Shown here piece by piece: positions 20,285-64,000 of a stretch of 64,000 bases of DNA. Source of the stretch: Streptomyces durmitorensis. GTDB taxonomy: Bacteria > Actinomycetota > Actinomycetes > Streptomycetales > Streptomycetaceae. The number at the start of each line of letters is the position of its first letter. Position 1 is the first letter of the stretch. Under the pieces are notes generated by a model that was given only the letters and a program-made list of their open reading frames with translations, did no database searches and had not been told where the DNA came from. A program made the position numbers and the translations under genes. The stretch is from contig NZ_CP097289.1 in assembly GCF_023498005.1 (NCBI RefSeq), positions 9,651,410 to 9,715,409 on the forward strand. Direction: 5' to 3'.

Positions 20285-20423
20285 GTGACTCTCTTTGAGC
20301 GGCTGGAGTCCAGCTCTCGGAATCTGTCCATGCGGACCCTCGGCGTGGGCAGCCTTCACCACCCGGAGAGCCCCCTGGCTGTAGCCAAGCCGAGGAAAAA
20401 GTCCACGTGGCATGTGCCCGAGA

Positions 20424-20456
20424 TCGTAACACCAAACGATCATGACACTTTGTCAA
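20424..20456 (-). promoter_or_regulatory. Possible promoter of the conservon operon
   Basis: On the minus strand TTGACA (20451-20456) is a perfect -35, and TACGAT (20424-20429) resembles a -10. The 22-base spacer is too long for a standard sigma-HrdB promoter, so only the -35 is persuasive. It lies about 140 bp upstream of the cvnA start. Confidence 0.3.
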
Positions 20457-20894: not shown

Positions 20895-20965
20895 GGGCCT
20901 TGACCCCTGATGTCGGACACACGAGACGCTGGTTCCTGAGGACCTGAGAACGGACATCTCGGGTC

Positions 20966-22173: not shown

Positions 22174-22331
22174 CCCGTGTTCAGGATTCGGGGTCGAGGC
22201 CCAAGTCCGGCAGCCCGTCGGGCCCCGCCGCCGGGGACTGACTCTATTTTCGTGTCAGTCCCGTTTTGGGTGGGGGCCCGGTATTGGCGGTGGGGGCTGT
22301 GCTTCAGGCCGTGGCCGGTTAGGTGGGGTGG

Positions 22332-23018: not shown

Positions 23019-23043
23019 CGCGCTTTCCTTTGCTGGTATCGGC

Positions 23044-24201: not shown

Positions 24202-24520
24202 GGACGGTTCCGGCTTCTCCTCGCTCGACGTGCGGTCGTGGGGTCCTGCGACCCGGCAGGCACGCTGCCATCCGCATGCTAGAGGAGGAGTCCAGATTTA
24301 AACAATGAGTCTAACTGGGTGCTTGGCGCTGTTTCATGGCCATGCATGGTGTTCTGGCGGCCTAGCCGCATTGGGGCGGGAGGGGGCAGTGAGCGAGCAG
24401 GCGGTGATGCGTCGGCAGGGGACTGTTTCGTCCCGGCACCTCCTGTCTCCTCCCAACTCGGCCCGGCCCACCACCCTGTGCCTGCTGGCCAGGCCGCTCG
24501 CCGCGCGGTACATCCAAAAC
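24202..24520. other. Upstream region and IS left flank
   Basis: Contains an AT-richer stretch (24280-24315), the likely promoter of the minus-strand PLP operon. The remainder leads into the transposase start at 24521 and should contain the left end of that element, which I could not delimit. Confidence 0.35.
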
Positions 24521-25285
24521 ATGACCCCGCACACCGGGTATCCCAGCGACCTGTCCGATGAACGCGATGAACGCTGGGAGCTGACCGCACCCGTACTCGC
24601 CGCCCGGCGGGCCCGGCGCCGCCGCGATGCCCTGGACATCGGCCGGCCGCCCGAGCACGACCTGCGACAGATCATGAATGCCATCCTGTACGTGGACCGC
24701 ACCGGGATCCCCTGGCGATATCTGCCGCACGATTTCGCCCCCTGGGCCACGACGTACGGCTACTTCACCACGTGGCAACAGGACGGCGTGTTCGAACAGC
24801 TCACCGGCCTGCTGCCGCTCCTGGTCCGGGAGGCCGAGGGCCGCGGGCCGCGGGCCCGAGCCCTCCGCCCGCATGCTGGACTCCCAGACCATCAAGACCT
24901 CCGCCAACGTGCACCTCGCCGACCAGGGCACGACGCGGGCAAACGCATCACCGGCCGCAAGCGCCATCTCGGCTGCGACACGTTGGGTCTGCTGCTGACC
25001 GTGCTGGTCACCGCGGCCAGCGTGTCCGACACCGCGGCCGGCGCCACCCTGCTGTCCCGCATCGCCGCCGCCCACCCGCGGGTGACCAAGGCACGGGTGG
25101 ACGCCGGCTACCGCACCACCGCCATCAACCACGGCGCCCGCCTCGGCATCGACGTCCACCCCGTCCAACGCCCGCCGGGCGTCCGCGGGTTCACCATCAT
25201 TGCGCGCCGCTGGACCATCGAGCGCAGCATCGGCTGGCTCATGCACCACCGCAGACTCACCCGCGACACCACCACGACGACGTCC
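24521..25285 (+). pseudogene. IS5-family transposase, double-frameshifted and fused to a foreign tail
   Basis: IS5-type DDE transposase from ATG 24521. The front half is intact (LRQIMNAILYVDRTGIPWRY, then WATTYGYFTTWQQDGVFEQL). Between about 24846 and 24945 the frame is shifted and then restored: the expected MLDSQTIKTSANVHLADQG appears in a neighbouring frame, so the first catalytic Asp is lost. The rear half is in frame (GKRITGRKRHLGCDTLGLLL, KARVDAGYRTT, WTIERSIGWLMHHRRLTRD). After about 25285 the typical transposase C-terminus is replaced by unrelated sequence while the frame stays open. Confidence 0.8.
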
Positions 25286-25678
25286 CGCGAGCGGCTGAAG
25301 AAGAGCGGCACGGAGACTGCGGCGAACGGCGTCTTCGCAGTGGTCACGATGAAGGACAAGGCCATGACCGGGGTACCGGCGGACGAGGTGGCGCCGATCA
25401 GCGGCGGGGGCTGGTCGTGGATCGCCCCGGACGGGGAGGCGGTCGGCTTCGACAGCGGCAACTCGACGAGCATCACCGTCGACAAGTACAACAACGCGGA
25501 TGCGGTGCAGCCGGGCACCTACCAGTGGCGTCTCCAGGCGTTCGACCTCACGCCCGCCCGGGCGAAAGGCGGCACCCTGATCTACGTGGACGGCGAGGAG
25601 AGCGCCCACCGCTGGAAGATTCCCGCTACCGACTCCGGGCCGCGCGCCGGCGAGCTGAAGAAGCAGCTCGCGGAGTAG
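25286..25678 (+). pseudogene. C-terminal fragment of a DUF4352-like (Ig-like) exported protein
   Basis: In frame with the preceding transposase but clearly from another gene: NGVFAVVTMKDKAMTGVPAD, GGGWSWIAPDGEAVGFDSGN, GTYQWRLQAFDL, TLIYVDGEESAHRWKIP and the end ELKKQLAE. The order of beta strands resembles the Ig-like C-terminal half of Streptomyces DUF4352 lipoproteins. The N-terminal lipobox part is missing, so the piece was captured by the transposon or left by a deletion. Confidence 0.55.
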
Positions 25679-25695
25679 ACGCCAAATGGCCCCCG

Positions 25696-25800
25696 TCAGC
25701 CGGTGCGTACCTTGAAGCGGTGCAGCATGTCCGGCAGGAACTGCTCCAGAAGTGCCTCGAGGCCGGCACCATGTGCGGCGGCCGCCAGCCGACGGCTCTC
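25696..25800 (-). pseudogene. C-terminal remnant of an unidentified gene
   Basis: The minus strand reads SRRLAAAAHGAGLEALLEQF then LPDMLHRFKVRTG and a stop at 25696-25698. It looks like a genuine helical C-terminus, but the upstream part is gone. The family is not recognised. Confidence 0.35.
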
Positions 25801-25846
25801 CTGGGGTCCACCGATCCTACGAATGACCGGCGTGGGCCCGAGCTAA

Positions 25847-26347
25847 AACGGTAGGACAAGCTTACGGCGAGCAGCCCCAGCCCACCTACTACCCGACGCC
25901 GCTGACCCCGAGTCCCTGCCGGCCGTCCGGGACATCGACGTCTACGACAGCGACGACTTCCCCGTCTACCGCTGGAGGCAGGCCCCCAAAGGCCTGGACA
26001 CCATGCGGCAGTTGCGGGAGCGGCGCCTACGGCCCGGCGGCCAGGAACCGGTCGCCGCGATCGAGTGCCGGGGCGGCAAGCGCAAGGCATGGCTGTACGA
26101 GATCGACAAGACGCTGCCGATACGGCCGATGACCTTCGCCAAGGAGGTCGCGCTTGACTGGGCGATGGCCCAACGGCAGACCTGCCCCTCGTGCTCCAGG
26201 CGGTATCACCGCTGCCTCCCGCTCAAGACCCTCGGATCCTGCCTGGAGTGCTACGACGGCACCCCGGCCGACCCTGACAGCTACACATACCCGCCCGCTG
26301 CTCCGGCGGCTTCCCGTCAGGCACCTTTGTACGCTGCTGCTGTGTAG
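25847..26347 (+). pseudogene. RRQRL-motif zinc-binding protein, 5' end uncertain
   Basis: Similar to the RRQRL-motif zinc-binding proteins carried by Streptomyces integrative elements. Family-like sequence starts at about 25929 (DIDVYDSDDFPVYRWRQAPK), then MRQLRERRLRPGGQEPVAAI and GGKRKAWLYEID. A two-knuckle zinc site follows (CPSC near 26190, CLEC near 26240). The frame is open from 25847, but the only ATG is at 26003, inside the conserved part. The start was therefore probably lost at a junction, unless a rare start is used. It lies near an integrase remnant, as in intact elements. Confidence 0.55.
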
Positions 26348-26486
26348 GCCACGCGCCGCTCAGACCCTTTTCGTAGACCACTTTCTTCGCCAGCGCTGAC
26401 CTCGAGCAGACCGCGCCCCGTGATGCCGCGCGAACGTCGCGGGCCGACGAGGGCCCCTTTGAATGCCTGGCAGAGGCTCATCTCGT

Positions 26487-27074
26487 CTATGCCGGACGGA
26501 GGGTGAGCGACCAGGGCACCAGGCAGTCCACCTCGATCAGTCCCGGTCCTGGAATGACGACCTTCCCGCGGAAGGGCCCGGTCCCGACGGACTGCAGCTC
26601 CGCCCGCTTCCCCTCCGTGCCTCTGGCGGGCGATCGGCGGCTGGGAAGTGCGCGGTGGTACAGCCGCGCGTACCCCTTCCCGTGCACCTCGAAGACGGCC
26701 GTCGCGCCGCCGCCCTCGTACAGGAGCACGTCTGGGTGCTTCCCGGCCGCTGTCTCCTTCAGCCCGCGGCAGGTGTCGGAGGAGCGGAAGCCGGCTTTCC
26801 AGCGCGGTTTGCTCTTGCGGCTGCCGGGGTCGACGGCGATGTGTGTGTACTGCCGTGGGATGACGGCGCGTGCGCGTTCCCGGCTGAAGGAGTTGACGGT
26901 GCACAGCATGTCGCCGCGCGCCAGGGTGTCCGGGGTGTCGACCAGGCCGTAGACGTAGAGCGCCCCGTAGAAGTTGCTCTTGATCTCCAATACGGTCGCC
27001 GTCCCGCCCGGCACGTGCAGCACCGGTACGGTTCCGTCGCCGCGGCCCTTATGCGGTAGCGCGATCTCGTCCAT
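26487..27074 (-). CDS. Hypothetical protein
   Basis: A 195-residue protein starting MDEIALPHKGRGDGTVPVLH with ATG at 27072-27074. It has no signal peptide or membrane helix. The sequence alternates beta-like strands (ATVLEIKSNFYGALYVYGLV, then AVFEVHGKGYARLYHRALP), suggesting a compact beta-rich domain. The family is not recognised. It starts within the degenerate 3' end of the integrase gene and has no obvious ribosome-binding site, so it may have been part of an integrative element. Confidence 0.55.
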   Translation of the reverse strand: MDEIALPHKGRGDGTVPVLHVPGGTATVLEIKSNFYGALYVYGLVDTPDTLARGDMLCTVNSFSRERARAVIPRQYTHIAVDPGSRKSKPRWKAGFRSSDTCRGLKETAAGKHPDVLLYEGGGATAVFEVHGKGYARLYHRALPSRRSPARGTEGKRAELQSVGTGPFRGKVVIPGPGLIEVDCLVPWSLTLRPA

Positions 27075-27110
27075 GACGTACGAGTGTCGACGGTCGAGGG
27101 CACGGCGGGA

Positions 27111-28161
27111 TCACGCTTTTGTGCACGGTTCGTACAGCTCCCGCCACACGGAGGCGGGAGCGGGCCAGCAGCATCGGAGTGGAGGTGCCGTCTTCCGCGT
27201 CGTGCGTCAGGGCACTGTGCCGGAGCCGGTGCAGGGTCCAGCCGTCCAGGTCCTCGATGTCCTCGGGTGAGGCGAGCGGGTTGGCCAGCAGCCGGGTGTT
27301 CTCCTCGAAGATCTCCTCAGCGCGGCGGTAGGAGAGCCGGGCTCGTCCGGTCTCCGGGCACACGTCGAGCGTCGGCGTTCCGGCCGGGGCCTTGCGGTCG
27401 GTGAGAAACAGTGGGCCGCGAGTGCGGCGGGCGATCAGGCGGGGCAGGAGTTGGGCGGTGCCGGACTGCCAGTGAATCCACTCGGTCGCCCCGCCCTTGG
27501 CGGTGATCTTCCCGCGTTTGTCCTGCGGGTACAGGTCTTCCACGTTCAGGCACAGCACCTCGTCGGCCCGTGCGGCGGGCTCGTAGAGCATCTTCCACCG
27601 CGTCTTCTCCCGCAGCGCCACGTCCAGCCGCCACAGAGCGGCGATCTGGTTCTCCGCCAGGGCCTTGGTGCGGTCCGGCGGTGCCGGCCGCCGCTCGATG
27701 CCGATCGTGGGATCGCCTTCGATCCAGCCTTGGCGCTGCCACCAGCCGATCGCCTTGCGCGCGATGGACAGCTCCCGGTTGACGGTGTCGGCGTCCATCT
27801 CGTCAGCCCTCGCCGCCGCCAGTTCGGCCAGCACCTCCGGCAGCGTCGGGTCGTCGATCGCGGCGACGGGGAAGGCGGGCGGCTTCGCGCCCCGGCGGGC
27901 GGATCCGGTCGGCGCCGGTTCGCCGGCGAGCATCCATCCCCACGTCGTCAGCGAGATCCGGCAGATCCGCGCGAACGACTTCGCGATGCCCGCGCCGGTG
28001 AGGTACCGCTCGACCGCCGCGGTGTACGACGCGGGAGGGGCGGACAGAGGTGCGACCCGAGCACGCGGCAACCGAAGTGCGCCCCCGCTCTCAAGCTCGG
28101 TCACTGGTTCGATCGTCACGCCGTCCCGCCCTTCCGGCGCTGCCGCAGTAAATGCGTACAC
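27111..28161 (-). pseudogene. Tyrosine recombinase (site-specific integrase) with a frameshift before the catalytic tyrosine
   Basis: An integrase with a SAM-like N-terminal DNA-binding domain (AAVERYLTGAGIAKSFARI) and a catalytic domain. The first catalytic Arg is in YEPAARADEVLCLNVEDL and the box II is LHRLRHSALTHDAEDG. The original frame then reads RLRVAGAVRTVHKS and runs on to 27049. A one-base shift near 27156 instead gives ASVWRELYEPCTKA and a stop at 27111-27113, which supplies the missing tyrosine segment (family form ASVRSLxxYxxP). It is therefore a recent frameshift pseudogene of an integrative element, or a sequencing error. Confidence 0.75.
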
Positions 28162-43482: not shown

Positions 43483-51771
<8,289 letters not shown>

Positions 51772-51783
51772 CAGTGGGGGCAA

Positions 51784-52496
51784 GACCAGTACGCCCCCTG
51801 CGCGGTAGCACAGCCGGGACTGGCGGCGGGAACATCCACTGACGATGCCGGACAGAGCGCCCTACGGGTCGATTTCTCCGGTCGCTCGGAAGCCCGCCTC
51901 AAGCTGGAGTCAAGTTCCGCTTATTGCCGGGATGGATCGAGACTCCCGTACGACGCGCTCTGCCGGGGAATCGCCCCCGACTTCGTCGGTCCCACCGATC
52001 TGGACCGTGCGCGTCGCGAGTGGCAGGTCCTGGATGGGCGCCGCTGTCTTCTGCCGATGGCGCGGCCGCGTCAGATGACCGGTGACGATCCCTCGCCGCG
52101 CACCAGGCCGGGTCGAGGGTCGGGCATCAGCCATGGCGAATGCCCTCGCGGGACCGGTCAGGAGGGCATTGCCGATGCGGTAGCGCCGTGCTCGTTCGTC
52201 CCGCTGGAGCAGAGGACCCGCGCCTTGCGGCCCAAGACGGCGCTGCACCGCCTTGATGCTGGTCAGCGTCCCGCCGGTGCGGGACGGCGGAATCGGGAGG
52301 GATGGGTGCTCGGCGAAGTGCTGCGGGATGGCGTCGTGCGACGCCGCGCCGCCCGGGTCGGTGATCCGGTGCAGCCCGACCGGGGATCGAATCGAGCGCG
52401 ACAGGTGGGCGGCGGGTGGGCAGACCACCGAGGTTCAAACAAGCGTATTAAACGAATGTCTTGTACGTGTGTATAGATCTGCTCTACGGTGAAGCC
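51784..52496. other. Gene-poor stretch upstream of the NRPS
   Basis: No supportable gene in about 700 bp. Frames on both strands are open but have no motif. An AT-richer run at 52435-52490 just before the hydrolase start is the likely promoter of that gene. Confidence 0.4.
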
Positions 52497-53290
52497 ATGG
52501 ATACCGACATCGCCAAGCGATCCGCGCTCACCATCGACGGCCGCACACTTTCCTACATGGACTTCGGCGGCACCGGCCGCCCGCTGCTGGCCCTGCACGG
52601 GCACATGTCCGAGGGCCTGTCGTACGCCGGTCTCGCCGCACGTCTCGCCCCAAAGTGGCGGGTCATAGCCCCCGATCAGCGCGGCCACGGCGAGTCCGGG
52701 CGGGCGGCCGACTACAGCCGGGAGGGCTACCTCGCCGACCTGAAGGCCCTCATGGATCACCTGGGTCTGGACCGGGCGGCGCTCCTTGGCCACTCGCTCG
52801 GCGCGATCAACGCCTACCAGTTCGCAGCCCGCCACCCCGAGCGCGTCACCGCGCTGATCAATGCCGAGGGATGCGCCGAACTCGGCCTGGACGGCAGCAA
52901 TCCGCTGGCGTTCGTCCTGAGTCTGCCGGAGGGCGGCGCCCTGACCGGGAGACGTTCGTCGCGCAACTCGGCCCGTTCGCACCGCACTTCGAGTCAGCCG
53001 TGCGTGAGCGGCCGGAGGGCGTCTGGGGCCTGCACTTCCACCCCCAGGACATCTACGACTCCGAGGACCAGGTGCACGGCGACCACTGGGCCGACTGGAC
53101 CGGCTCCGCCTGTCCGGCGCTGCTGCTACGTGGCGCCAAGGGCGGCGTCCTGCCGGCGGAGCAGGCAGAGCAGATGGTCACCCGGCGCCCCGGCACCCAC
53201 CTCGTCGAGCTGGAGACCGACCACTTCGTCTACGCCAACGACCCGGCCGCCTTCGCTACTGCGGTCCGCGGCTTCCTCGACGCGGTCTGA
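52497..53290 (+). pseudogene. Alpha/beta hydrolase with a single frameshift
   Basis: Starts MDTDIAKRSALTIDGRTLSY at ATG 52497. The oxyanion HGHMSEGLSYAGLA, the DQRGHGESGRAADYSREGYL region and the nucleophile elbow LLGHSLGAINAYQFAARHPE are in frame. Near 52950 the frame is broken. The rest (ETFVAQLGPFAPHFESAVRE, PALLLRGAKGGVLPAEQAE, LVELETDHFVYANDPAAF with the catalytic His) is in another frame ending at TGA 53288-53290. All catalytic elements exist, so one indel separates it from an intact gene. Confidence 0.8.
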
Positions 53291-53369
53291 CACAGGCCCG
53301 CAGCCGTCCCCGAGACCAAAGGCCAGCGGATGGTGGGCGGCCTCTGGTTGAGCGCTTTACGTCCTGAGT

Positions 53370-53400
53370 GCTGTAGTTGGCGAATCCCGCCAACTACAGC
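53370..53400 (+). terminator. Terminator hairpin after the hydrolase
   Basis: A perfect 13-bp stem (GCTGTAGTTGGCG at 53370-53382, complement at 53388-53400) with a 5-base loop. Confidence 0.75.
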
Positions 53401-53424
53401 GCTCGGTCACAGTGTGTGACTGAG
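53401..53424. repeat. Second inverted repeat adjoining the terminator
   Basis: GCTCGGTCAC and GTGACTGAGC form a 10-bp stem with one mismatch and a short loop, immediately after the first hairpin. The two stacked hairpins may act together. Confidence 0.5.
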
Positions 53425-53613
53425 CGTTTCAGTTGGCCCCTGAGCGTTGCACTCGGCCCGGCTGAGAGTGACGGTCGGCCTGGGCCGTTCGAGGGTGGGC
53501 TGAGCTGGGGCTGTGGCAGGGCTCAAGCCCGCCGTCCCCACTCCATAGCGCGGCCGATGAGTTTGGATGTCGCGGCCGGTCCAAGCTTGTGACGCCTCAG
53601 GAAGGGAACCGCC

Positions 53614-54219
53614 ATGCCGGAGCTTCTCGTCGACTTCATCACGTCCCTCGACGGCCATGCCTCGGGAGAGGGGTGGCCCGGGTTCTGGGGCCTGGAGGGC
53701 CCGGAGTACCTTGCGTGGCTCGGTGAGCAGCCCGAGGTCACCTACCTGATGGGAGCAAACACCTACCGTCTGATGTCGGGTTTCGCCGCAGGCGAGGTCC
53801 CACATGGCCAAGACGAGTTCAGGCCCGAGGAAGAGGCGTCCGTCGACGAGCTCACGCAAGCGTCCAAGGTGGTGTTCTCCTCCTCGCTCGAGGAGGAACT
53901 GAAGTGGGCCAACTCCACGCTCGTCCGTGACGATGCCGTCGAGGCGGTCCGGGCCATGAAGTCCAGTGGCTCGGGGCTCCTCAGTACGATCGGCAGTCTT
54001 AGCCTGTGCCGGTCCCTGCTGCGAGCCGGACTCGTCGACCGCTTCCGGGTCGTGATGTTCCCGGTGATCACCGGGGCCACGGGTGAGGAACGCATCTACG
54101 ACGGCTATCCGGACGTTGCCCTGGAGATGATCGGGCACCGCACCTTCGACGGCCGCATCCAGCTGGTCGAGTACAAGCCTCGCGTGCTTGAGCACCCCCC
54201 GCTCGACGTCCCCGCGTGA
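53614..54219 (+). CDS. RibD C-terminal/dihydrofolate reductase-like protein
   Basis: A 201-residue protein of the bacterial DHFR-like (RibD_C) family: MPELLVDFITSLDGHASGEG, VTYLMGANTYRLMSGFAAGE, KVVFSSSLEEELKW and the LCRSLLRAGLVDRFRVVMFP VITG segment are all in order, and the NADPH-binding half is complete. ATG 53614 follows AGGAAGG by 7 bases. It is intact, in contrast to the doubtful relative at 37.2 kb. The exact substrate is unknown; these proteins reduce pteridine-like or other small heterocycles. Confidence 0.85.
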   Translation: MPELLVDFITSLDGHASGEGWPGFWGLEGPEYLAWLGEQPEVTYLMGANTYRLMSGFAAGEVPHGQDEFRPEEEASVDELTQASKVVFSSSLEEELKWANSTLVRDDAVEAVRAMKSSGSGLLSTIGSLSLCRSLLRAGLVDRFRVVMFPVITGATGEERIYDGYPDVALEMIGHRTFDGRIQLVEYKPRVLEHPPLDVPA

Positions 54220-54363
54220 CCTTGCCTTGTCCGCCGTTCGACTGCCCGCCAGGCCGGCGCTGGCGGGCGCGAAGCAAGACCTAGGAGTGCAGTAGGCGAG
54301 GTAATGCCCTGTTTCGGGCTCGGAGTTGGGTGAGGGGACCTGGCCAGTGGGGTGGATCGTCGA

Positions 54364-54560
54364 TCAGGTGCGGGGCTGTGCGAACAGGCCGGGTTCGGGT
54401 TCGGTGAGGACGCCTCGTGTGACCAGGCGCTTGAGCTTGGACCGGATGCCTTCGGTGTTCTTCGGGATGGTCGGCAGGTCGAGGGCCCCGCACAGGTCGC
54501 GGGCCCGCAACGGGTGACCCGCGACAGGGGCAGCCATCATCGCGGCGCCGAGGAAGGCAC
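54364..54560 (-). pseudogene. C-terminal winged-helix scrap of a transposon-associated protein
   Basis: The minus strand reads RARDLCGALDLPTIPKNTEG, IRSKLKRLVTRGVLTEPEPG and LFAQPRT with a stop at 54364-54366. Relatives form the C-terminal winged helix of the coiled-coil protein family represented by the N-terminal half at 32.2-32.5 kb. No N-terminal part is present here. Confidence 0.5.
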
Positions 54561-54566
54561 CAGCCC

Positions 54567-54931
54567 CATCCAGCTGGCCTCCGCATACATTTCATGCCCC
54601 GACAGGCGGTAACTGGGCCCCGCACTCACCTGCAACCGGACCCCGTTCTCGCTTACGAAGCCACTTGTCGGACCTGCGAGTTCGGGCCACGGTCCGGACG
54701 CATCGGCAGAGGTTCACGTCAGGTCGTCGCCGAGGGTCGGTCAGGAACCTGCTGGTCAGTACAGGGCGATCACGTCGACGACGATGGCCCGCCTGGAGAT
54801 GTAGGCGTGCACGTCCCGGGCGGGCAGGTCGAGTCCGACTCGAACCGCCCGAGCCAGGTTGGTGTGGGAAGGAGGTGGGCAGCGCGCGCCCGTACGTCGC
54901 GCGTAAGGGCGCTGCCCATGGATATGCCAGG
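54567..54931. other. Gene-poor stretch
   Basis: About 360 bp with no supportable gene or hairpin. Confidence 0.4.
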
Positions 54932-55312
54932 TCAGGAGGTGTACAGGTACACCTTGGCCTGGCTGCCCTTGCCGAGGTTCCAGTCGAAGGACTTGTCGGT
55001 GCCCACTCCGCAGGCCGACTTCTTCCTCTTCTCGTCGTTGCGGGGGTTCGTCGCCTTCACCCGGGCACACTTGCCGTCCATCCTGGTGTCCTTGACGTGG
55101 CCCCGAACGTGGACCTTGCCCCTCTCACAGGTGATATCCCACTCGGCCTTGCCGCCGGGGACGGTGACCTCGTTGCCGGTGTCCGGGCATGCACCCATGA
55201 CCGACGAGCCGCCATGGGGTGTACTGCTGGTGGCCGTGGCGGTCCCGGCGCTCACGCCGCCGGCCAGGAGCAAGGCGGCCGTCATGGACGTGACGAGTCG
55301 TTTGGTTCGCAT
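54932..55312 (-). CDS. Secreted hypothetical protein
   Basis: A 126-residue exported protein: MRTKRLVTSMTAALLLAGGV with a cleavage site near TATA-T (about 28). The mature part has four cysteines in CPDTGNEV, CERGKVHVRG, GKCARVKA and KSACGVGTD, and is basic, ending KVYLYTS. GGGGAAG lies 5 bases before the ATG at 55310-55312. Its size and cysteine pattern resemble small secreted Streptomyces proteins, but I know no specific family. Confidence 0.75.
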   Translation of the reverse strand: MRTKRLVTSMTAALLLAGGVSAGTATATSSTPHGGSSVMGACPDTGNEVTVPGGKAEWDITCERGKVHVRGHVKDTRMDGKCARVKATNPRNDEKRKKSACGVGTDKSFDWNLGKGSQAKVYLYTS

Positions 55313-55486
55313 CTGAGCTTCCCCCGTTGTGTGCCGTCTGGTCAGTTTGGGGCGGCACATCTCCCCGGTGGCATCGGCTGATGCACGTGGCTGACTTTTC
55401 CACCGTGCCCCGGCGGAGGTCATCGTGTTTCGGGCGTGCCCGAAACACTCAGAGTGCAGTACCTGATCTTCCGTCCGGCTTGTCAT

Positions 55487-55765
55487 CGCTCACTGGTCGA
55501 ACCCGTGATCACAGCACGGAAGGTCGCGCATCCGTCGGTCAGCGGCCACCAGGGCAGATACGCGATGCGCAAGACCGTGAACGCGATCTTGTACCAGAAC
55601 CGCAGCGGCTGCCAGTGGGACCTGCTGCCCCACGACCTGCCGCCTGCCGGGGCAGTGAAGTACTACTTCTACAAGTGGCGCGACAACGGCACCGACCAGA
55701 CCATCCACGGCCTGCTGCGGTGGCAACTACGGGAGAAGAAGCAGCGATTGGCCGCCCCGAGCCTC
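55487..55765 (+). pseudogene. IS5-family transposase, N-terminal fragment
   Basis: Encodes ARKVAHPSVSGHQGRYAMRK, TVNAILYQNRSGCQWDLLPH and DQTIHGLLRWQLREKKQRLA, the N-terminal third of a Streptomyces IS5-type transposase. The sequence stops near 55765, where it abuts a pentapeptide-repeat gene on the other strand. No catalytic residues remain. Confidence 0.7.
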
Positions 55766-56100
55766 AGTCGCCGAATCGAACCGGGCGGCACCAAAGCGGC
55801 TGTGTGCTGTGGCAGAGTCGCGGAGAGCTGTGAGAAGGGCGTCGAGTAGGGATTCAGTGAAGGTGGTGCCGCGATGGTCGATGTCGGTGCCGGGGGCCAG
55901 GCCGGCCAGGTGGGCCAAGCAGGCATCGCGGTCGACGTCGGCCAGGTGGGCCAGGCAGGAGGCGTGGTCTGGGACGTGGATGCCGCGGCAGCCGACGGGG
56001 TCCTCCGCGATGGCGCCCTGGCCACAATGAGCCAGGCAGGCGGAGTTTGGGACGGTTGGGACCTTGGGTGTGCCACGCCCAGAAGGCGATCCGTCACGGC
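55764..56100 (-). pseudogene. Pentapeptide-repeat protein, N-terminal fragment
   Basis: The minus strand gives DPVGCRGIHVPDHASCLAHL, ADVDRDACLAHLAGLAPGTD, IDHRGTTFTESLLDALLTAL and SRFGAARFDSAT. This is the N-terminal module (CxxGIxVPxHxxCLAHLAD) and first repeats of a Streptomyces pentapeptide-repeat protein. The frame then crosses into the IS5 fragment, which truncated the gene. The start codon upstream of about 56100 is unclear. Confidence 0.65.
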
Positions 56101-56455
56101 CGGGTAGCTGCCGCCTTCGCTGCCGTGGCTGCAGCACTGGAATCCTCGCTGCAGCACTGAAGGACGCACTGAAATGAATCGTGCGCTCCCGCGAGGGGGG
56201 CATGCCCAGGAGCATCACGCACGCGGGCGGACAGTTCGCGCCCCTGACCGTCGACACCGGTGCGCGGGACGGTCGTTGCGCGCAACTGTCCGCAACGCGC
56301 TCGAGGGGTCAAGGGCCGCTAGGACGTGCATCAAAGCGGATCTTGGTGATGGGCTTGCCTTACTCCAGAGGTAATCGCCTCGACCGACTTGCGCTGGCAA
56401 TGTCGGTGATCTCACCACGTCGACAGGGCGTGGACCTGGAGGGGAGAGGTCTGCC
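56101..56455. other. Gene-poor stretch
   Basis: About 350 bp before the SnoaL-like gene, with no supportable gene. GGAGGGGAG lies at 56438-56446, 10-18 bases before the next start and serves as its ribosome-binding site. Confidence 0.4.
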
Positions 56456-56899
56456 ATGCCTATAGCCGCACCTACAAACACGCGCACGGTGGTTGAGGAA
56501 CTGCTGCGCAGGATCGGCGAGGGCGACCCCGAGCGCATCTCCGAGCTGTATGCGGAGCGGGGCGATTGGAAGCTTGACTGGCCGGAGGCCGAGCACGGCC
56601 GCACTGCCACGCCGTGGATCCGTCACCGGTCCACCCGAGCCGACGCAGCCGCCCACTATCGCGAGCTCGCCGAATGCCACATCCCGGAACACGTGGCGAC
56701 CGAGGTCGAGTGCATCCTCATCGACGGAAATGAGGCGGTCGTGCTCGGCGAGATCCGCCAGACCGCCCGGCCGACCGGACGTGCCTATCGCGCGCGGTTC
56801 GCCCTGCACCTCACCGTCGAAGACGGCCTTGTCACTCGGCACCATGTCTACGAGGACAGCCTTGCTGTCGCCCAGGCGTTCGAGGCGGAGAGTCAGTAA
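56456..56899 (+). CDS. SnoaL-like/NTF2-fold protein
   Basis: A 147-residue protein of the SnoaL-like NTF2 fold: a first helix with TVVEELLRRIGEGDPERISE LYAERGDW, a Trp-rich loop and the closing sheet (GNEAVVLGEIRQTARPTGRA, RFALHLTVEDGLVTRHHVYE, DSLAVAQAF). Members include polyketide cyclases and small hydrolases/isomerases. ATG at 56456. No other biosynthetic gene is next to it, so a specific role is not assigned. Confidence 0.85.
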   Translation: MPIAAPTNTRTVVEELLRRIGEGDPERISELYAERGDWKLDWPEAEHGRTATPWIRHRSTRADAAAHYRELAECHIPEHVATEVECILIDGNEAVVLGEIRQTARPTGRAYRARFALHLTVEDGLVTRHHVYEDSLAVAQAFEAESQ

Positions 56900-56979
56900 A
56901 CGGCCGTAGGGACGATCGCGTATGGCTGCCGGGCGGCACCACCTTGAGGGCGACGATCCGGCCCCGGCCCCGGCCCTGG

Positions 56980-57255
56980 TCAGGAGGGCTCGGTGAGAAC
57001 CCACAACTCCCAGACTCCGGCGGCTCGGCACTCGTAGGCGCGTACGCCGTTCTCCAAGTACCACCGGCCGCGCTCATGACAGCGGTTCTCCTCGGTCGGA
57101 GGAAAATCCGCCACGTGGTGCCAGCCCGGCCCTGCTGCCGGCGTGGACTGTGCAGGCGTGGGTGCGGGCGCGGAGGCCACGGCCGCTGCGCCGTGGCTCG
57201 CCACCAGCAGCGATGCGGCCGCAGCCGCGAGGAGAACGCGTTTCATGGTTCGCAT
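56980..57255 (-). CDS. Small secreted protein
   Basis: A 91-residue exported protein: MRTMKRVLLAAAAASLLVAS with an Ala-rich h-region, an Ala/Pro linker to about 45, then a compact domain FPPTEENRCHERGRWYLENG and VRAYECRAAGVWELWVL. Two cysteines could form one disulphide. ATG at 57253-57255 follows GGAAGG; internal ATG at 57246 is an alternative. Function unknown. Confidence 0.7.
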   Translation of the reverse strand: MRTMKRVLLAAAAASLLVASHGAAAVASAPAPTPAQSTPAAGPGWHHVADFPPTEENRCHERGRWYLENGVRAYECRAAGVWELWVLTEPS

Positions 57256-57724
57256 GGAACGCATCCTTCCGCAGCCGGCGGGCCCACATCGATGGAGACC
57301 GCTCCGCCTTCCCCCGATTGGCCTAAAGGGTGATGCGGGCAGTCAGGGCAGCCAGGGCGCCCAGGTGTGCAACGTCGGCTGCGAAGGCAGCCAAGCGCCC
57401 CCTCATACCCAGCGGATACGAAGTGACCTGGCACCGCGCCGCAGCGCCGACCGCGCCGCGGCCGGTTCATGCCCGAGGAGCGGGCGTGCGACGTGCTGGG
57501 GCTTAGCTGGCCCTGAGTCATCAATCAAGGCAGCCTTAAGGATCACAGTTCGGGGCCGGCAGCGGGGGAGTGGCGCCGCACGGACGTCTACGTTCGATCT
57601 TGTGAGTTACCAAGCAGCCGCCCCGGACCCGTCCACGTACCCCGCGCTCTCCTCCTACCTGACGCAGACTTCGACGCGCGCGTCGCAACGACGTTCGCGT
57701 ACGGCGTTGGGAGTGCCGCGCCCG
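57256..57724. other. Gene-poor stretch
   Basis: About 470 bp with no confident gene. It includes the possible upstream extension of the peptidoglycan-binding gene from GTG 57602. Confidence 0.4.
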
Positions 57725-58357
57725 ATGGACGGGCTGACACACGTGGCATCCACCCCGGGCAGAAAGGGAAAGGGACACCACCGCGCGACCGCCTCCAAAG
57801 GCAGACAGCCTCGGTCCCGCCCCCATGCCCGCCATGGCGCGATCAAGCCCAAACGGGGCTTCCCGCCGCTCTCCTACGGCTATGCGTCCGCGGCGCTGCT
57901 CGCTCTCACCGCCGGGCTCCTAGCCCAGTCCCACGGCCACCCGGCCCCCGCCAGTCCGCACGCCGCGCCTCCCGCTCGGCAACCGCACGCTCCCGGTCAC
58001 GGGTCTTCGCCCGTACCCGACAAGGCACCCACCGCGCCCACCCCGCCCAGCAAGCCCGCACCACACCCAAGACTCCCGGGGAGCGCCGAGCACGACGCCC
58101 CGCCTGCCCGCTCGCATCAGGCAGCCGGCAGCGCAGCCGCGTCGAGCGTGCTGCACGTGGGCAGCACAGGCACCTCGGTTCGGCAGTTGCAGGAGCAGTT
58201 GGGCCGACTACGTCTCTACACCGGTCCCGTGGACGGCTACTACAGCCACGACGTCGCGACCGCGGTCGCGCGCATGCAACAGGCACGCGCCATCAACGAA
58301 CCCCTCGGCGTCTACGGCCCGGGCACCCGCAACGCCATCAGCACCGCGGCGATGTAA
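57725..58357 (+). CDS. Peptidoglycan-binding-domain protein, membrane-anchored
   Basis: A 210-residue protein with a basic N-terminus, one hydrophobic helix (YGYASAALLALTAGLLA, about 46-62), a long Pro/Ala/His linker and a C-terminal PG_binding_1 domain (VLHVGSTGTSVRQLQEQLGR, LYTGPVDGYYSHDVATAVAR, YGPGTRNAIS). It would bind cell-wall peptidoglycan outside the membrane. ATG 57725 with GGGAG about 12 bases upstream; GTG 57602 is a longer alternative. There is no catalytic domain. Confidence 0.75.
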   Translation: MDGLTHVASTPGRKGKGHHRATASKGRQPRSRPHARHGAIKPKRGFPPLSYGYASAALLALTAGLLAQSHGHPAPASPHAAPPARQPHAPGHGSSPVPDKAPTAPTPPSKPAPHPRLPGSAEHDAPPARSHQAAGSAAASSVLHVGSTGTSVRQLQEQLGRLRLYTGPVDGYYSHDVATAVARMQQARAINEPLGVYGPGTRNAISTAAM

Positions 58358-58640
58358 TTCTGGCTCCCCTGTGCCAGGGCTGCTGAGCAGAGGATCGGCG
58401 ATGAGCCCCGGGCCTCGTCAGCCGCCGTCGCCGACGCACTGGAGACGCGAGCGCGGGAAGTGGACCGCCGGATGCCCCGCTGAGCGGCACCGAACCGCAG
58501 AGCTTCGTCCGACGACGCCGCCGACCCTCAACCCCCGCAGCGCCCAAGCATTCCCGCGGCACCGGCGCCCACGGTTGAGGCGGGCCCGGCCAGGAGAGGA
58601 GCCCTCGCGGCCGGTACTGCCCACCCCAGCCTCCTCGGAG
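58358..58640. other. Gene-poor stretch
   Basis: About 280 bp between the peptidoglycan-binding gene and the oxygenase remnant; the lost N-terminus of the latter would have lain here. Nothing recognised. Confidence 0.35.
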
Positions 58641-59224
58641 CCGTCACCCGGCTTCTTCCACGAGCCGTTCGCGAACTGCTCCGCGCTGATCCAAAGCCTG
58701 GTGGTGCTGGGAGACCAACTCCTCGCGGCCTGCGCCCAAGACCTCGCGCTCAAGGGTGCGCTCACCGATTCCTGTCGGGCCTCACCCATGCACCACCTGG
58801 GCCTCAACTCCTACCGGCCCGGGCACGGCGCCGACATCGCCAACAACGTCGACTACGCGATGTCCCCGCACATCGACCACGCCTACTTCACCGTCGAGCT
58901 CCAGGACACGCCGGGCCTGCAGGTGCAGGACGAGGACGGCACCTGGCTCTCGGTTCCCCTGGTCCCTGACGCGGTGTTCGTCTCCCTTCCCGACTACCTG
59001 CAGCGGGCCACGAACGGCGTCTACCGTCGGGCGACGCACCGGGTCGGCACGGTGAGAGCGGCCGCATCTCCATCCAGTACAAACACCGCCCCGACTACAG
59101 CACCGTCGTCGCACCGCTGGCGCCGTGCACCAGCGCGGACACCCCGGCCCGCTACGCGCCGTTCGACACGGGCACCCGGTACGCAGCCCTACTCCAATCC
59201 CTCCTGAACCGGTACAACCGGTAG
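58640..59224 (+). pseudogene. 2-oxoglutarate/Fe(II) oxygenase (isopenicillin N synthase-like), truncated and frameshifted
   Basis: Encodes the catalytic core of an IPNS-like dioxygenase: LNSYRPGHGADIANNVDYAM, MSPHIDHAYFTVELQDTPGL (HxD iron ligands) and DAVFVSLPDYLQRATNGVYR followed by RATHRV (second His). One base is lost or gained near 59050, after which ESGRISIQYKHRPDYSTVVA carries the 2-oxoglutarate Arg (RxS). The protein ends at TAG 59222-59224. The N-terminal half (about 120 residues) is not present. All three iron ligands and the Arg survive despite the break. Confidence 0.75.
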
Positions 59225-59269
59225 AACCCGCCCCCGCGCTCTCGGCGTGCAGTGTTGCTGACACACCGC

Positions 59270-59610
59270 GGCGAGGAGGAAGTCACCGCGGAGCGGCATT
59301 CCGGCGCCCGGGAAGCCTCCCACCGGATTGGGGGCGCTGTGGTTGCGGCGATGCACTGCCGCAGGCCCCGCAGATGATGGTCCTTGAGCTCGACGCCGAA
59401 GGCCCGGGACGGGACACCGCCGTACTCGGCCATGCCGTCGCCGATCACGCCTCCGAGGTGATCGGCGACGGCCACAACGCCCTTGGCCAGCCCCCCCGAA
59501 TCCCCGGATCGGCGGTGTAGCGGTGATGCCGATCAGGCTCGCGAGCCCGGCGTAACTGATGCTGCCAAGGGAGCCACCGAACACCTCGTCAAGCCGACGT
59601 GAGCCAAAGG
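59270..59610 (-). pseudogene. Unidentified gene with a frameshift in a C7 run
   Basis: The minus strand from about 59605 reads MAFGSRRLDEVFGGSLGSIS, YAGLASLIGITATPPIRGFG. A one-base shift in the seven-C run at 59491-59497 then joins it to LAKGVVAVADHLGGVIGDGM, AEYGGVPSRAFGVELKDHHL and RGLRQC. Beyond this it loses protein character. Two coherent pieces joined by a homopolymer shift suggest a real gene that recently broke. The family is not recognised. Confidence 0.4.
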
Positions 59611-59835
59611 CCATACACACACTGCAGAGGGCTGCCCCGACTTCGAAAGGAGCTTCAGCGAACGGCTGGGGACGACGCCCGTGCCCTGACGGCACAGGTT
59701 CGCGGGGTTGCTGGTCGTGGCGGTTGGATCTGCGGCGGTGCAAGGATGACCACCAACCGCGCCGGGGCCGGAAAGCCATCAACCCATTGCCGAGAGCCCT
59801 GGCTTCATGGCCCCAGAGCGCAGACGGGAGCTCCC

Positions 59836-60462
59836 ATGTCCGGACGGCCCGATGACGAAGTCCCGCGCATACCCATGACCGCCGAGGAGATCGAGACAGC
59901 CCACCTTGTCGCTCCGCCCAAGCTCAACGGCCAGGTCACGCTGCGGGAGTACGACCCGCGGTGGCCCGCGGTCTTCGAGCAGGAGGCCGTCCCCATGAGT
60001 GAGCGCCTCGGCCACGTCGACCACCGGATCGAGCACGTCGGCTCCACCTCCGTGCCGGACCTGCCCGCCAAGCCGGTCATCGACATGCTCCTGACCGTCC
60101 CCGATCCCGGCGACGAGGCGTGCTACGTACCGGCCCTGGAAAACCTTGGCTTCACGCTCGTCATCCGAGAGCCCGAATGGTACGAGCACCGCGTTCTGCG
60201 CAAATACCACCTCGCCCCAGGCGTCGAATCGGCCAACCTGCACGTCCTGCCCGAAGGCTGCCAAGAAGCCGTCCGTATGCTGCGCTTCCGCGACCGGCTG
60301 CGCACCGTCAGCAGCGACCGCAAGCTATACGCCGACGCCAAACGGTCACTTTCCCTGCAGTCCTGGGAATACATGCAGAACTACGCCGACGCCAAGTCCG
60401 AAGTCGTTGCGGAAATCCTGGAACGGGCGATGGCGGGTGAGAGTTCCAGGCCGGACGCGTAG
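59836..60462 (+). CDS. GrpB family (UPF0157) nucleotidyltransferase-like protein
   Basis: A 208-residue protein of the GrpB/UPF0157 family, which adopts a nucleotidyltransferase fold. The core is VTLREYDPRWPAVFEQEAVP, then HRIEHVGSTSVPDLPAKPVI DMLL (the GSTxVPxLxAKPxID signature), WYEHRVLRKYHLAPGVESAN and FRDRLRTVSSDRKLYADAKR. ATG 59836 follows GGGAG. Function is not known; some relatives are fused to dephospho-CoA kinase. Confidence 0.9.
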   Translation: MSGRPDDEVPRIPMTAEEIETAHLVAPPKLNGQVTLREYDPRWPAVFEQEAVPMSERLGHVDHRIEHVGSTSVPDLPAKPVIDMLLTVPDPGDEACYVPALENLGFTLVIREPEWYEHRVLRKYHLAPGVESANLHVLPEGCQEAVRMLRFRDRLRTVSSDRKLYADAKRSLSLQSWEYMQNYADAKSEVVAEILERAMAGESSRPDA

Positions 60463-60595
60463 CGAGTCGGATTCGGCCTCAGCCATGACTCCAGGAGATC
60501 AGCGTTCAGGACGGCATGATGATCTACCGCATAGAGTGACCCTGCACCTGGCTGGTCTGTATGAGGGCTTCCGGCGGCGAACGAATGAGGCTGCA

Positions 60596-60976
60596 ATGAG
60601 TGAACTGACGAAGCCCGAGATCGACCTTCCGGAGGGTGACGCTCCCACCGAACTGACAATCCGCGACCTTGTCGTCGGGGACGGGCTTGAGGCGAAGCCG
60701 GGCAGGGTTGTCCGGGTTCACTACGTCGGGGTCACCCTCGAGTCCGGAAAAGAGTTCGACACCTCCTGGGGCCGGGGCCAGACGTTCAAGTTCGCCGTGG
60801 GCGGTGGCAAGGTCATCAAGGGCTGGGACCGCGGTGTCAGAGGGATGAAGGTCGGCGGCCGGCGCGAGATCATCGTTCCGCCGCGCCTCGGTTACGGCAA
60901 CCAGTCACCCTCGCCGTTGATCCCGGCGGGCTCGACACTCGTCTTCGTGGTGGATCTGTTCTCCGTCGCAGTCTGA
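60596..60976 (+). CDS. FKBP-type peptidyl-prolyl cis-trans isomerase
   Basis: A 126-residue cytoplasmic FKBP that catalyses proline isomerisation. Family core residues are VVRVHYVGVTLESGKEFDTS W, FKFAVGGGKVIKGWDRGVRG, MKVGGRREIIVPPRLGYGNQ and IPAGSTLVFVVDLFSV, with the active-site Tyr/Asp/Phe/Trp pocket visible. ATG at 60596; the upstream 130 bp hold its promoter. It is a standard single-domain FKBP as found in most Streptomyces. Confidence 0.95.
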   Translation: MSELTKPEIDLPEGDAPTELTIRDLVVGDGLEAKPGRVVRVHYVGVTLESGKEFDTSWGRGQTFKFAVGGGKVIKGWDRGVRGMKVGGRREIIVPPRLGYGNQSPSPLIPAGSTLVFVVDLFSVAV

Positions 60977-61095
60977 GGCCTTCTGCTACCCGGCTCTCCG
61001 TCCGGAACCAAGGCCGGGAAACACTCGCCGGCCGACGCCCTCCGCCGGGATCGACTGCGGGGCGCTGCTGACCGCGGGTTCAGCCTGGAGGGGGC

Positions 61096-63148
61096 TCACG
61101 AGATCAGCCTCACGGCCCAGCCCGCGCTGCACCGGGCGAGGTCGGCAGCACAGTCGCCTTGGTGCACGACGTCGCCCGGCTCGGTCGGCAGAGGCCGGCC
61201 GGCCTCCAGGTGGAGCAGGACGAGGTGGAAGGCACGCTGCCACTCCACCCGCCAGGACGCGTCGATGTCCTCCAGCTGCTCGCGCCGCTCGTCCGACATC
61301 GCCCCCGCCGACGACTTCACCGGCAGGCTCTCGGCCCGCCGCTGCTCGATCTCCTGCGCCTTGCGGGCGGCGGCCCGCGCGTTCTTCAGCCAAATCCCCA
61401 CCCGATAGCCCTGATGCGCGGCGTCCAGCGGGGCCAGCAGGTGCCCGTTCACCTCGGCCCATCCACGCGCCGCCGCGAGACCTTCCTCCCACGCGACGTC
61501 GAAGTGCGACCACACCATGCCTAGCTTGTCCAGCTGCTAGATGCGGTCCTCGTTCATGTCTCCGCGGGCGTAGAAGCGCCGGTTGTCGGCGATCCACTGC
61601 CCGAGGGGGAACGCGGCGAGCGAGGCCAGCCACCCGCCTGGTCCTCGCCACCGGGCACACGGTAGGTGAAGGGCACCTTCAGGTCGCCGTGCTCGCGGGC
61701 GTAGATGACGGCGGCCTCGACGCCGCGCCGCCAGTGCTCGTGGTCGGGGTTGAGGACTCGCAGGTTGATGAACGCTGCCAGCTGCGCCGGGTCGCGCGGC
61801 ACGGAGAACTTCAGCAGCTCTCGCGCGGACGCCGACGGGCCGCCGGACCCGTTCCCCTCGCCCGGCTCTCCTGGCCCTGCGCGGCCTTCTGGACGGGCTT
61901 GTAGTGGCTTGGGACCTGCTGTTCGGCGAGCTGTTCCACTACGCGTGCGTCGTGCGCCCAGAGCGCTTCCAGCAGCTTCGCCAACCCGCCGCATGCCCGG
62001 GAGGTGAGCATGTTGTCCGCTGTCTCGCCCGGCCCGAGCAGCACTGGCACCATGAACAAGGCGACCTTCCCCTCGCCTGGCTGCATCCGCAGTGCCCGTC
62101 CCACGGCCGGGACGAGGCCGGGCATGGAGCCGCGTACGTCGGCGAAGTAGACGGAGTCGCAGTTCTTGGTGTCGACGCCCTCGCGCAAGACCTTCACCGA
62201 GCTGAGGAAGCCCTTCTCCACGACTGTGCCGTCCGTGGCGATCCCGGCCGCGAACGCCTCGTCTTCCTTCACCACGTGATGGAAGACGAACGTGCGTCAG
62301 AAGCCTTCCTCGGACGACGCCTTGAGCAGCGCGGGCTGCAATCCGGGCCCCACGGACCTCGTCCGAGCGTCCCTCAGCACCCAGGAGCTGCGCAGCCTGG
62401 AGCTGGGTGTCGGTGATGTCCACGCACACCACCTGGTACGGCGCGCAGATCCCCCGGCCGATGGCCTCCGACAGCATCAGCGTGTAGCAGCGCGCGCCGA
62501 ACTGCCCGTCCGGGCTGTCCTCCATGCTTGCGACCAACTCGCCCGGCGCCCCTCGGTATCCTCGTCCCCGAGCTGCCACAGTCGGGGCGTGGCCGTCATG
62601 TAGAGGCGACGCAGGGACGGGATGCGGGTGTGTCGTGGACGACAGCCCAGGGCTTGCCCAGCCGACCCGACGTTCGGTGCGCCTCATCGACCACGATCAG
62701 CTCCCAGCCCGGGAGGCCTGCCTTGTGCGCGCTCCAGGGTGCCGAGCCCGAGGGACGCGTACGTGGCGAACACGGTGACCTTGTCGAACAGCCGGGCCCA
62801 GTCGACCAGTTCCTTCACGTCAGTGGTGTTGGGGAAGGTCACGTCCTCGCCCTGGAGGGACGAGACCCCGATCATCGGGCCCGTGTGGCCGCTCTCACGC
62901 CACGCGGCCTCGGTCTGGGCGAGCAGGTCCAGCGAGGGGGACGAGTACCAGCACACGGCCTGCGTGGAGCTTCTCTGCGCTGCGGGCCGCGACCCGGGTC
63001 TTCCCGGACCCGGTGGCCATGACACCTGAGTCCGGAGTCCTCGCTCAGGCACAAGCGATCTTGCAGGCAGTTCGAGGGCGCGCACGACCGCGTCAATGGT
63101 CTCTCGCTGGGCTGCCTCGCGTTGGTCAGCGTGGCCTGTGATGGACAT
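61096..63148 (-). pseudogene. Terminal DEAH helicase (TtrA-like), multiply broken
   Basis: A superfamily 2 helicase with helicase-associated domains, of the type placed next to Streptomyces telomeres. From the start at 63148: MSITGHADQREAAQRETIDA, Walker A MATGSGKTRVAARSAEKL near 63020, IGVSSLQGEDVTFPNTTDVK, the DEAH box VVDEAHRTSGRLGKPWAVVH near 62690, then TATPRLW, VCVDITDTQLQAAQLLGAEG and motif V/VI LREGVDTKNCDSVYFADVRG to AVGRALRMQPGEGKVALF (the motif VI Gln is Pro here). The C-terminus has two helicase-associated repeats (HWRRGVEAAVIYAREHGDLK and FPLGQWIADNRRFYARGDM). A TAG at 61537-61539 precedes QLDKLGMVWSHFDVAWEEG. At least four frame breaks and one nonsense codon make it a pseudogene. 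Intact relatives are about 800 residues and have been linked to conjugal transfer of linear replicons. Confidence 0.85.
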
Positions 63149-63400
63149 GCTTCGCCTGCCTTCTGCTGGGGTGTATCCGGTTTAAGAGGGGCCGTGAGGG
63201 TTGTGGTTGGACTGACGTGGCTGGCTGCTCTGCCCGTCATGGTCATCGGTACGGCTGTGGGATGGATCTCGATAATCCTTCGGAGCGGGCCTGGCGGATA
63301 GGCTCTGATTCCAGAGTCTATCCGATACTGAAAATGAAGCATGCTACCCTCATCTGATCGACACTGTTTCCTGGGAAGCACCCCGGGCACTCGGAGAAGC

Positions 63401-63664
63401 ATGAATCGCGACGCAGTCATTCAAGCCGCTTCCGACGGCGACAGCAGTCCAGTCCTCATCCCGCTCCTGTGCCTCTTCCTGATCATGGGGCTTGTGCAGG
63501 TCATACGGCCTCAACTGCTTTGGAGGATGAACAGAAACATGCAGAGAGGGTGGGTGAAGGATCCGGATGCGACCGAACCCACTAGTAAGGGGTACGCGAT
63601 GAAACGAGCGAGCGGGGTGCTGGTCCTGGGATTCGCCATATGGATGCTGGTGCAGCAGATCTGA
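63401..63664 (+). CDS. Small membrane protein, DUF6199-like
   Basis: An 87-residue protein with two hydrophobic segments (about 18-35, SPVLIPLLCLFLIMGLVQVI; and 69-87, ASGVLVLGFAIWMLVQQI) separated by RPQLLWRMNRNMQRGWVKDP and DATEPTSKGYAMKR. This RPQxLWRxNRxxQRGWVKxPxATEP pattern is a small Streptomyces membrane-protein family, DUF6199 as I remember it. ATG 63401 with GGAG 6 bases upstream. It is the last intact gene before the telomere. Confidence 0.75.
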   Translation: MNRDAVIQAASDGDSSPVLIPLLCLFLIMGLVQVIRPQLLWRMNRNMQRGWVKDPDATEPTSKGYAMKRASGVLVLGFAIWMLVQQI

Positions 63665-63800
63665 CTGGAACTCACGAACCCCCCAGCCCCTTCTGCTGCT
63701 AGGCCGTTAGGCCTGTGAACACCCGTCAAGGTCCGCCAACTAAAGCGGGTCGGGTGGGTGCTAGATCGGAGGCCCTGGAGGCGAAGCCGGAGGGGCCGTT

Positions 63801-63826
63801 GGGTGGGGGAGCGAAGCGGACCCACT
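63801..63826. repeat. Telomeric hairpin with GAA loop
   Basis: GTGGG (from 63803) pairs with CCCAC (63821-63825); the interior GGAGC-GAA-GCGGA can form GC pairs and sheared G-A contacts. It is one of the subterminal palindromes. Confidence 0.7.
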
Positions 63827-63871
63827 GGGCCGGAGCGCAGCGAAGGCCTGCACTCCGGAGCTGCAGCGGTG

Positions 63872-63898
63872 CACTCCGGGAGCGCAGCGGACGGAGTG
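63872..63898. repeat. Telomeric palindrome, 7-bp arms
   Basis: CACTCCG (63872-63878) and CGGAGTG (63892-63898) with an AGCGCAGCGG-type interior. Confidence 0.75.
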
Positions 63899-63899
63899 T

Positions 63900-63926
63900 C
63901 ACCCGCCTTGCGCAGCAAGGCGGGTG
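63900..63926. repeat. Telomeric palindrome, 12-bp arms, GCA loop
   Basis: CACCCGCCTTGC (63900-63911), loop GCA (63912-63914), complement 63915-63926; perfect. Confidence 0.9.
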
Positions 63927-63927
63927 A

Positions 63928-63948
63928 GCGTGGGGCGCAGCCCCACGC
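63928..63948. repeat. Telomeric palindrome, 9-bp arms, GCA loop
   Basis: GCGTGGGGC (63928-63936), loop GCA, complement 63940-63948; perfect. Confidence 0.9.
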
Positions 63949-63950
63949 CA

Positions 63951-63973
63951 GCGCTCCCGCGGAGCGGGAGCGC
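63951..63973. repeat. Telomeric palindrome, 10-bp arms, GGA loop
   Basis: GCGCTCCCGC (63951-63960), loop GGA, complement 63964-63973; perfect. Confidence 0.9.
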
Positions 63974-63998
63974 AACACCCGGGCGCAGCCCGGGTGTT
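63974..63998. repeat. Telomeric palindrome, 11-bp arms, GCA loop
   Basis: AACACCCGGGC (63974-63984), loop GCA, complement 63988-63998; perfect. It is the outermost complete palindrome visible. Confidence 0.9.
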
Positions 63999-64000
63999 CG

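Follow-up and report, generated by a model that had tools for sequence, protein, structure and literature searches.

The outer end of the DNA stretch analyzed here is, as judged from its sequence, almost certainly an archetypal telomere at the right-hand end of a linear Streptomyces chromosome, with the outermost 39 bases (palindromes I and II) absent from the assembly. This stretch (the window; 64,000 nucleotides) comprises bases 9651410-9715409 of contig C1 of S. durmitorensis, and its position 64000 is the final base of this 9,715,409-base contig. The genome consists of two contigs with a total of 9,862,620 bases; the second of these, C2, is a linear plasmid of 147,211 bases (about 147 kb). 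The end of C1 represents a known, ordinary kind of bacterial telomere. A previous sequence-only reading had placed a linear-replicon telomere at the window end and had named ordinary sequence continuing past position 64000 as the observation that would speak against it. The assembly contains no such sequence; the contig stops there, and the same sequence is present, in inverted orientation, at the other contig end.

Knowing the identity of this end fixes the location and the orientation of the window within the genome. In the last 280 bases, the loop heptamers GCGCAGC, GCGAAGC and GCGGAGC occur eight times on the plus strand and not once on the minus strand; across the whole 64-kb window, they are distributed about equally over both strands. 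Because of this strand bias and of the position at the contig end, the plus strand can be regarded as the strand with the 3' overhang and position 64000 as distal, an orientation that had already been proposed from the letters alone.

Four perfect hairpins with 3-base loops are present within the last 102 bases, and a fifth, weaker one is positioned further inward (Table 1); the strong part of the array covers positions 63872-63998. We named this fifth element palindrome VII according to its inward order. The previous suggestion of five or more stacked palindromes at the edge with GCA/GAA loops was thus correct for the array as such, which reaches to position 63998, and for the GCA triplet found in three of the main loops. 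However, only four of the palindromes are perfect, the fourth main loop is GGA, and the GAA loop motif (GCGAAGC) is restricted to the inner part. Collectively, closely packed palindromes with loops of the GCA type (sheared-pair loops) are found on the 3' strand. The 64-kb window contains ten perfect stems of 8 bp or longer that enclose a 3-nt loop, and four of these fall within its last 102 bases. When the last 300 bases were subjected to 1000 mononucleotide shuffles, such stems numbered 0.014 on average and at most 1. When region 63722-64000 was folded as DNA, a z-score of -5.79 was obtained, and none of 200 dinucleotide shuffles folded as well. Next to palindrome VII, a 21-base unit is present in two tandem copies that are 81% alike (63849-63890).

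Table 1. Features of the window, with positions counted from its first base.
Feature	Position	Strand	Description
Right copy of the chromosomal terminal inverted repeat (20.4 kb)	43576..64000		Aligned to the left end of C1 up to 63962
Nonribosomal peptide synthetase frame, 2766 aa	43483..51783	-	Inner repeat border falls within this frame
Subtelomeric helicase (ttrA-like) copy, inward-facing	61132..63160	-	Matches the C2 open frame in three reading frames
Inner telomeric region	63722..63871	+	Weaker, less regular stems; GCGAAGC loop motifs at 63781 and 63811
Palindrome VII, imperfect	63872..63898	+	CACTCCG/CGGAGTG 7-bp stem around a GCGCAGC core
Palindrome VI	63899..63927	+	13-bp perfect stem, GCA loop
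Palindrome V	63928..63948	+	9-bp perfect stem, GCA loop
Palindrome IV	63951..63973	+	10-bp perfect stem, GGA loop
Palindrome III	63974..63998	+	11-bp perfect stem, GCA loop

The sequence-only reading had advised a comparison with known telomeres, and this comparison bore it out. The last bases of the window align with the right end of the S. lividans plasmid SLP2 (NC_004933.1), and the telomere is matched by 107 plasmid records, of which 106 bear the name Streptomyces and one the name [Kitasatospora]; no matching record was found when a phage collection was searched with it. The right end of SLP2 and the window have palindromes III-VI in the same order and with the same loops, placed in both cases at the replicon end, whereas the stem sequences of V, of VI and of the middle of III differ, mostly through paired changes, and the outer 39 bases are absent from the S. 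durmitorensis assembly. Stem-loops with mostly 3-4-nt loops are described for all six telomere classes considered in PMC8743542, so that an array of this kind might also belong to one of the non-archetypal streptomycete classes (SCP1, Sg2247, Sg13350, pRL1 or pRL2 type). The direct alignment with the SLP2 right end, which served as the reference end for the class, the GCA triplet closing all but one of the four main stems, and the Tap and Tpg proteins of the archetypal families encoded in the genome render this assignment exceedingly unlikely.

The right ends of both SLP2 and C2 extend 39 bases further out than position 64000 and start with CCCGCGGAGCGGG, which is palindrome I of the published numbering; in this scheme, palindrome I corresponds to the first 13 nt and is followed by palindromes II-IV (PMC4513846). 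Since this numbering makes the outermost palindrome of the window palindrome III, both palindromes I and II are absent from it. The estimate that about 40 end bases are missing is therefore matched closely, and the archetypal class holds in view of the SLP2 right-end alignment, but the array begins at palindrome III and not, as had been thought, at palindrome II. For annotators, the comparison with known ends places only about 39 bases beyond the window. According to PMC4513846, palindrome III is one of two palindromes reported to be bound by Tap, and palindrome I pairs with palindrome IV; positions 63956-63968 within palindrome IV of the window form an intact 13-base stretch able to pair with a 3'-strand copy of palindrome I.

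On the chromosome, palindrome I would lie outside the window; on C2, it is seen at the right end. The left end of C2 reaches 27 bases beyond the right end of the chromosome, with one gap in the alignment. The right end of C2 finishes in the nanopore barcode BC14, which is joined directly to palindrome I (L008:17158-17211) and is surrounded by what we take to be adapter flanks. This arrangement suggests that the C2 reads reached the last base of the molecule and that the 39 bases missing from the chromosome were lost through assembly or coverage. In the cell, the chromosome would hence carry the full telomere; its left contig end is shorter by about 36 more bases. The BC14 sequence is that given in Table 2 of PMC9575581. 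Untrimmed nanopore sequence was also noticed on two further telomeric contig ends, with BC04 on the right end of G025:C3 (L062), and on the right end of G117:C1 (L071). The latter carries a 13-base piece that is presumably part of the ligation adapter. A scan of the genome contigs for the nanopore native-barcode adapter pattern yielded nine stretches, none of them from a streptomycete as judged by record title, and hence no further telomeres.

Among 199 genomes of the genus, 59 contain a match to the telomere at E ≤ 0.001 and 25 one of at least 100 bits (both counts include the S. durmitorensis genome itself). We located the match in 29 other genomes and tabulated 26 of these loci, leaving out L031, L034, and L038, in which the match does not start at query base 1. 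In 24 of the 26 tabulated loci, the outer edge of the match is positioned at most 61 bases from the contig end (39-40 bases in eight of them); it is 146 bases away in one locus and internal in another (L035, on contig G070:C71). The relatives' contigs also have weak matches (<72 bits) at internal places, and many of these involve the inner part of the query.

GC-rich palindromic DNA can break assemblies, and one might thus consider that the window ends in an internal pseudo-telomere, or that the chromosome is fused (circularized), with the contig merely broken at a hard palindromic stretch. The weak internal matches to the inner part of the telomere are in keeping with this idea, as is telomere sequence found inside three records (NZ_CP099470.1, NZ_CP101398.1, and G070:C71). 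However, both ends of C1 stop in the same sequence, inverted and accompanied by a 20.4-kb repeat, the match lies no more than 146 bases from a contig end in 25 of the 26 tabulated relatives, and the linear plasmid of the very same strain ends in telomere sequence joined directly to sequencing adapter. We therefore regard a pseudo-telomere or a fusion as very unlikely and retain the chromosomal telomere as our reading.

The three records with internal telomeres differ in their make-up. In the S. cavourensis plasmid NZ_CP101398.1 (L079, at about 97,700 of 194,662), two telomeres stand head to head, flanked on both sides by near-perfect inverted duplicates (99.8% identity over 5951 columns), and the copy in this plasmid is without palindrome I at the junction as read. 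Two telomeres are likewise placed head to head inside contig G070:C71 (L035), where the inverted duplicate is 92% identical over 490 columns. These two arrangements reflect either a fold-back assembly or a real telomere fusion. In the plasmid record NZ_CP099470.1 (L080, at about 10,500 of 21,680), a telomere starting from palindrome I is joined to other DNA, and the 6.2 kb examined contained no inverted duplicate.

To the right end of C1 we aligned both ends of C2, the right end of SLP2, and the 26 loci of the relatives, giving 30 telomeres; the left end of the chromosome, which starts inside palindrome IV, was left out. Standard base pairs are kept in 96.8% of 1274 cells of this alignment, and in 25 of the 43 stem pairs both partners have changed. 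The covariation score of 0.403 compares with a shuffle mean of 0.099 and was reached by none of 500 shuffles, a significance that is inflated because the aligned telomeres are related and were chosen by similarity. Sliding the pairing partners, a control that guards against such inflation, although the window row itself supplied the structure, gave at most 0.056. The number of further pair types (51) is only slightly above that in the shuffles (45.9; 25 of 500 reach it). Loop conservation is highest for the GGA of palindrome IV (29 of 30) and the GCA of palindrome III (28 of 30), followed by the GCA of palindrome V (26 of 30), while the GCA of palindrome VI is kept in only 19 of 30 telomeres. 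On the evidence of the paired changes in these aligned sequences, the telomere stems are under selection, and they offer a clear example of stems maintained in this way.

GC-rich hairpins can also terminate transcription. A cluster of terminators, or of other repeats, would leave both the contig-end position in the relatives and the loop-specific conservation unexplained; moreover, no T-runs follow the stems when these are read from the sequence, and a search of positions 60000-64000 against Rfam gave no match at the gathering score. We consequently give this explanation practically no weight.

The telomere forms the tip of a long, near-identical inverted repeat present at both chromosome ends. 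Positions 43576-63962 are 99.94% identical to the left contig end over 20,393 columns, with 3 mismatches and 9 gap openings; the last 38 bases of the window have no left counterpart, the left contig beginning about 36 bases further in. On its inner side, the repeat ends at position 43576, within a nonribosomal peptide synthetase frame. On the right, this frame runs for 93 bases past the border and then meets a stop; on the left (C1 left end, 12108-27217), the synthetase continues with further condensation and adenylation domains. We infer that a break followed by copying of one chromosome arm onto the other would give such a layout. In the assembly, the left synthetase copy is itself divided between two frames at about base 17,400. 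A plus-strand frame at 46039-48888 (949 aa) was rejected as a gene, since it has no Pfam or NCBIfam match and lies opposite the nonribosomal peptide synthetase frame.

The genome also possesses a cognate tap-tpg pair, whose genes are adjacent on the same strand of the plasmid C2. Tpg (C2:121414-121959, minus strand) scores 290.7 bits against a cut-off of 90 and is the only Tpg match of the genome; Tap (C2:122008-124176, minus strand) scores 1102.7 bits against a cut-off of 600 and is the only full-length Tap match. The Tpg protein retains the sequence Ser-Thr-Asp-Glu-Asp, the Thr of which is residue 114 when counted from the MSMFGDG start and residue 112 from the MFGDG start; the nucleotidylation site of Tpg has been mapped to Thr114 (PMC3572947). 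A search of the chromosome C1 for these two protein families revealed neither a Tpg nor a full-length Tap. A stretch at C1:4008006-4008506 was rejected as a second Tap, as it reaches only 71.6 bits against the cut-off of 600 and covers only profile positions 13-182; the Tap model gives matches below its cut-off in four of 14 control genomes, E. coli included. Across the 199 genomes, a Tpg match is present in 157, and in all 25 whose telomere match reaches 100 bits or more (Fisher p = 0.003), an association that is supportive only, given that the table was filled by hand and that many of the genomes are drafts without ends.

In the system described in PMC4513846 and PMC3572947, the 3' overhang is about 300 nt long and folds; palindromes II and III are bound by Tap, which together with Tpg deposits the initial 13 nt on residue Thr114 of Tpg. 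Protein-primed end patching by Tap and Tpg is most likely the mechanism operating on the S. durmitorensis chromosome as well. Bidirectional replication would leave the plus strand as a 3' overhang that would fold into the hairpins closed by GCA and GGA; Tap would bind these and, with the terminal protein Tpg, prime the copying of the overhang, and Tpg would remain on the 5' end of the complementary strand. The overhang, the binding of Tap and Tpg, and the 5' cap are carried over from the known family; seen here are the sequence and its place at the contig end, the inverted repeat, the conservation of the stems, and a single gene each for Tpg and full-length Tap on C2.

Given that the only Tpg and the only full-length Tap detected are encoded on C2, these plasmid-encoded proteins probably serve the chromosome ends in trans, as far as gene content can tell. 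Chromosome and plasmid also share their tips. The right end of C1 is 96.6% identical to the left end of C2 over the outer 146 bases and 92.5% over a further stretch of 67 bases; inward of this, no match is listed until 0.9 kb, and 78-82% identity is found at 0.9-2.8 kb (the helicase region). The two telomeres are thus alike in the tip and differ in the inward DNA and in a stretch, including one of the 21-base units, that is missing from the left telomere of C2. To the right telomere of C2, the right end of C1 is only 82.7% identical over 127 bases.

We compared five other multi-replicon genomes, chosen for matches both on the chromosome and on another contig (weaker doubles, e.g., G038, G054, G074, and G083, were omitted, as was the right end of G094:C1). 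In four of them (G067, G094, G101, and G117), a chromosome end and a plasmid end share at least 96.5% identity over 341-400 bases, while G025 reaches only 78.4%; the other end of the G117 chromosome resembles the plasmid ends to only about 72%. With the same settings, the S. durmitorensis genome itself yields 84.4% over 225 bases. Ends of different genomes have a median identity of 72.9% and a maximum of 90.1%, calculated from those 217 pairs among 27 ends that aligned at E ≤ 1e-5 near the outer end, so that unaligned pairs lie outside the median and the two ends of SLP2, if aligned, count as different.

The subtelomeric helicase gene, for which we use the name ttrA from PMC8743542, is annotated as a DEAD/DEAH box helicase in the SLP2 record. 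On C2 its frame is open over 878 codons from stop to stop; at the right chromosome end, the matches to this frame are spread over three different reading frames, and both chromosome ends align with the SLP2 helicase as the same set of broken pieces. The chromosomal ttrA-like gene thus appears broken as assembled, possibly through assembly indels. With the sole recognizable tap-tpg pair and the unbroken helicase frame on the 147-kb plasmid, and the helicases of the chromosome broken as assembled, we consider the chances evenly balanced that the chromosome is linear only through this plasmid and that a recent exchange or conversion took place between its tip and the left tip of the plasmid. If this were true, loss of the plasmid should bring about end deletion and circularization of the chromosome.

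A similar situation is known from S. clavuligerus, in which the tap-tpg pair is likewise carried by a linear plasmid, pSCL4, and not by the chromosome (PMC8743545). There, isolates cured of pSCL4 had end deletions in all clones and clear circularization in two (PMC8743545); for S. durmitorensis, plasmid dependence is deduced from gene content. A plasmid-borne tap-tpg arrangement in S. rochei is cited in PMC8743545, and PMC8743542 names more chromosomes without tap and tpg whose plasmids have both. The modest broader value of our analysis is to place beside these systems another chromosome whose recognized end-patching genes are found on a plasmid only.
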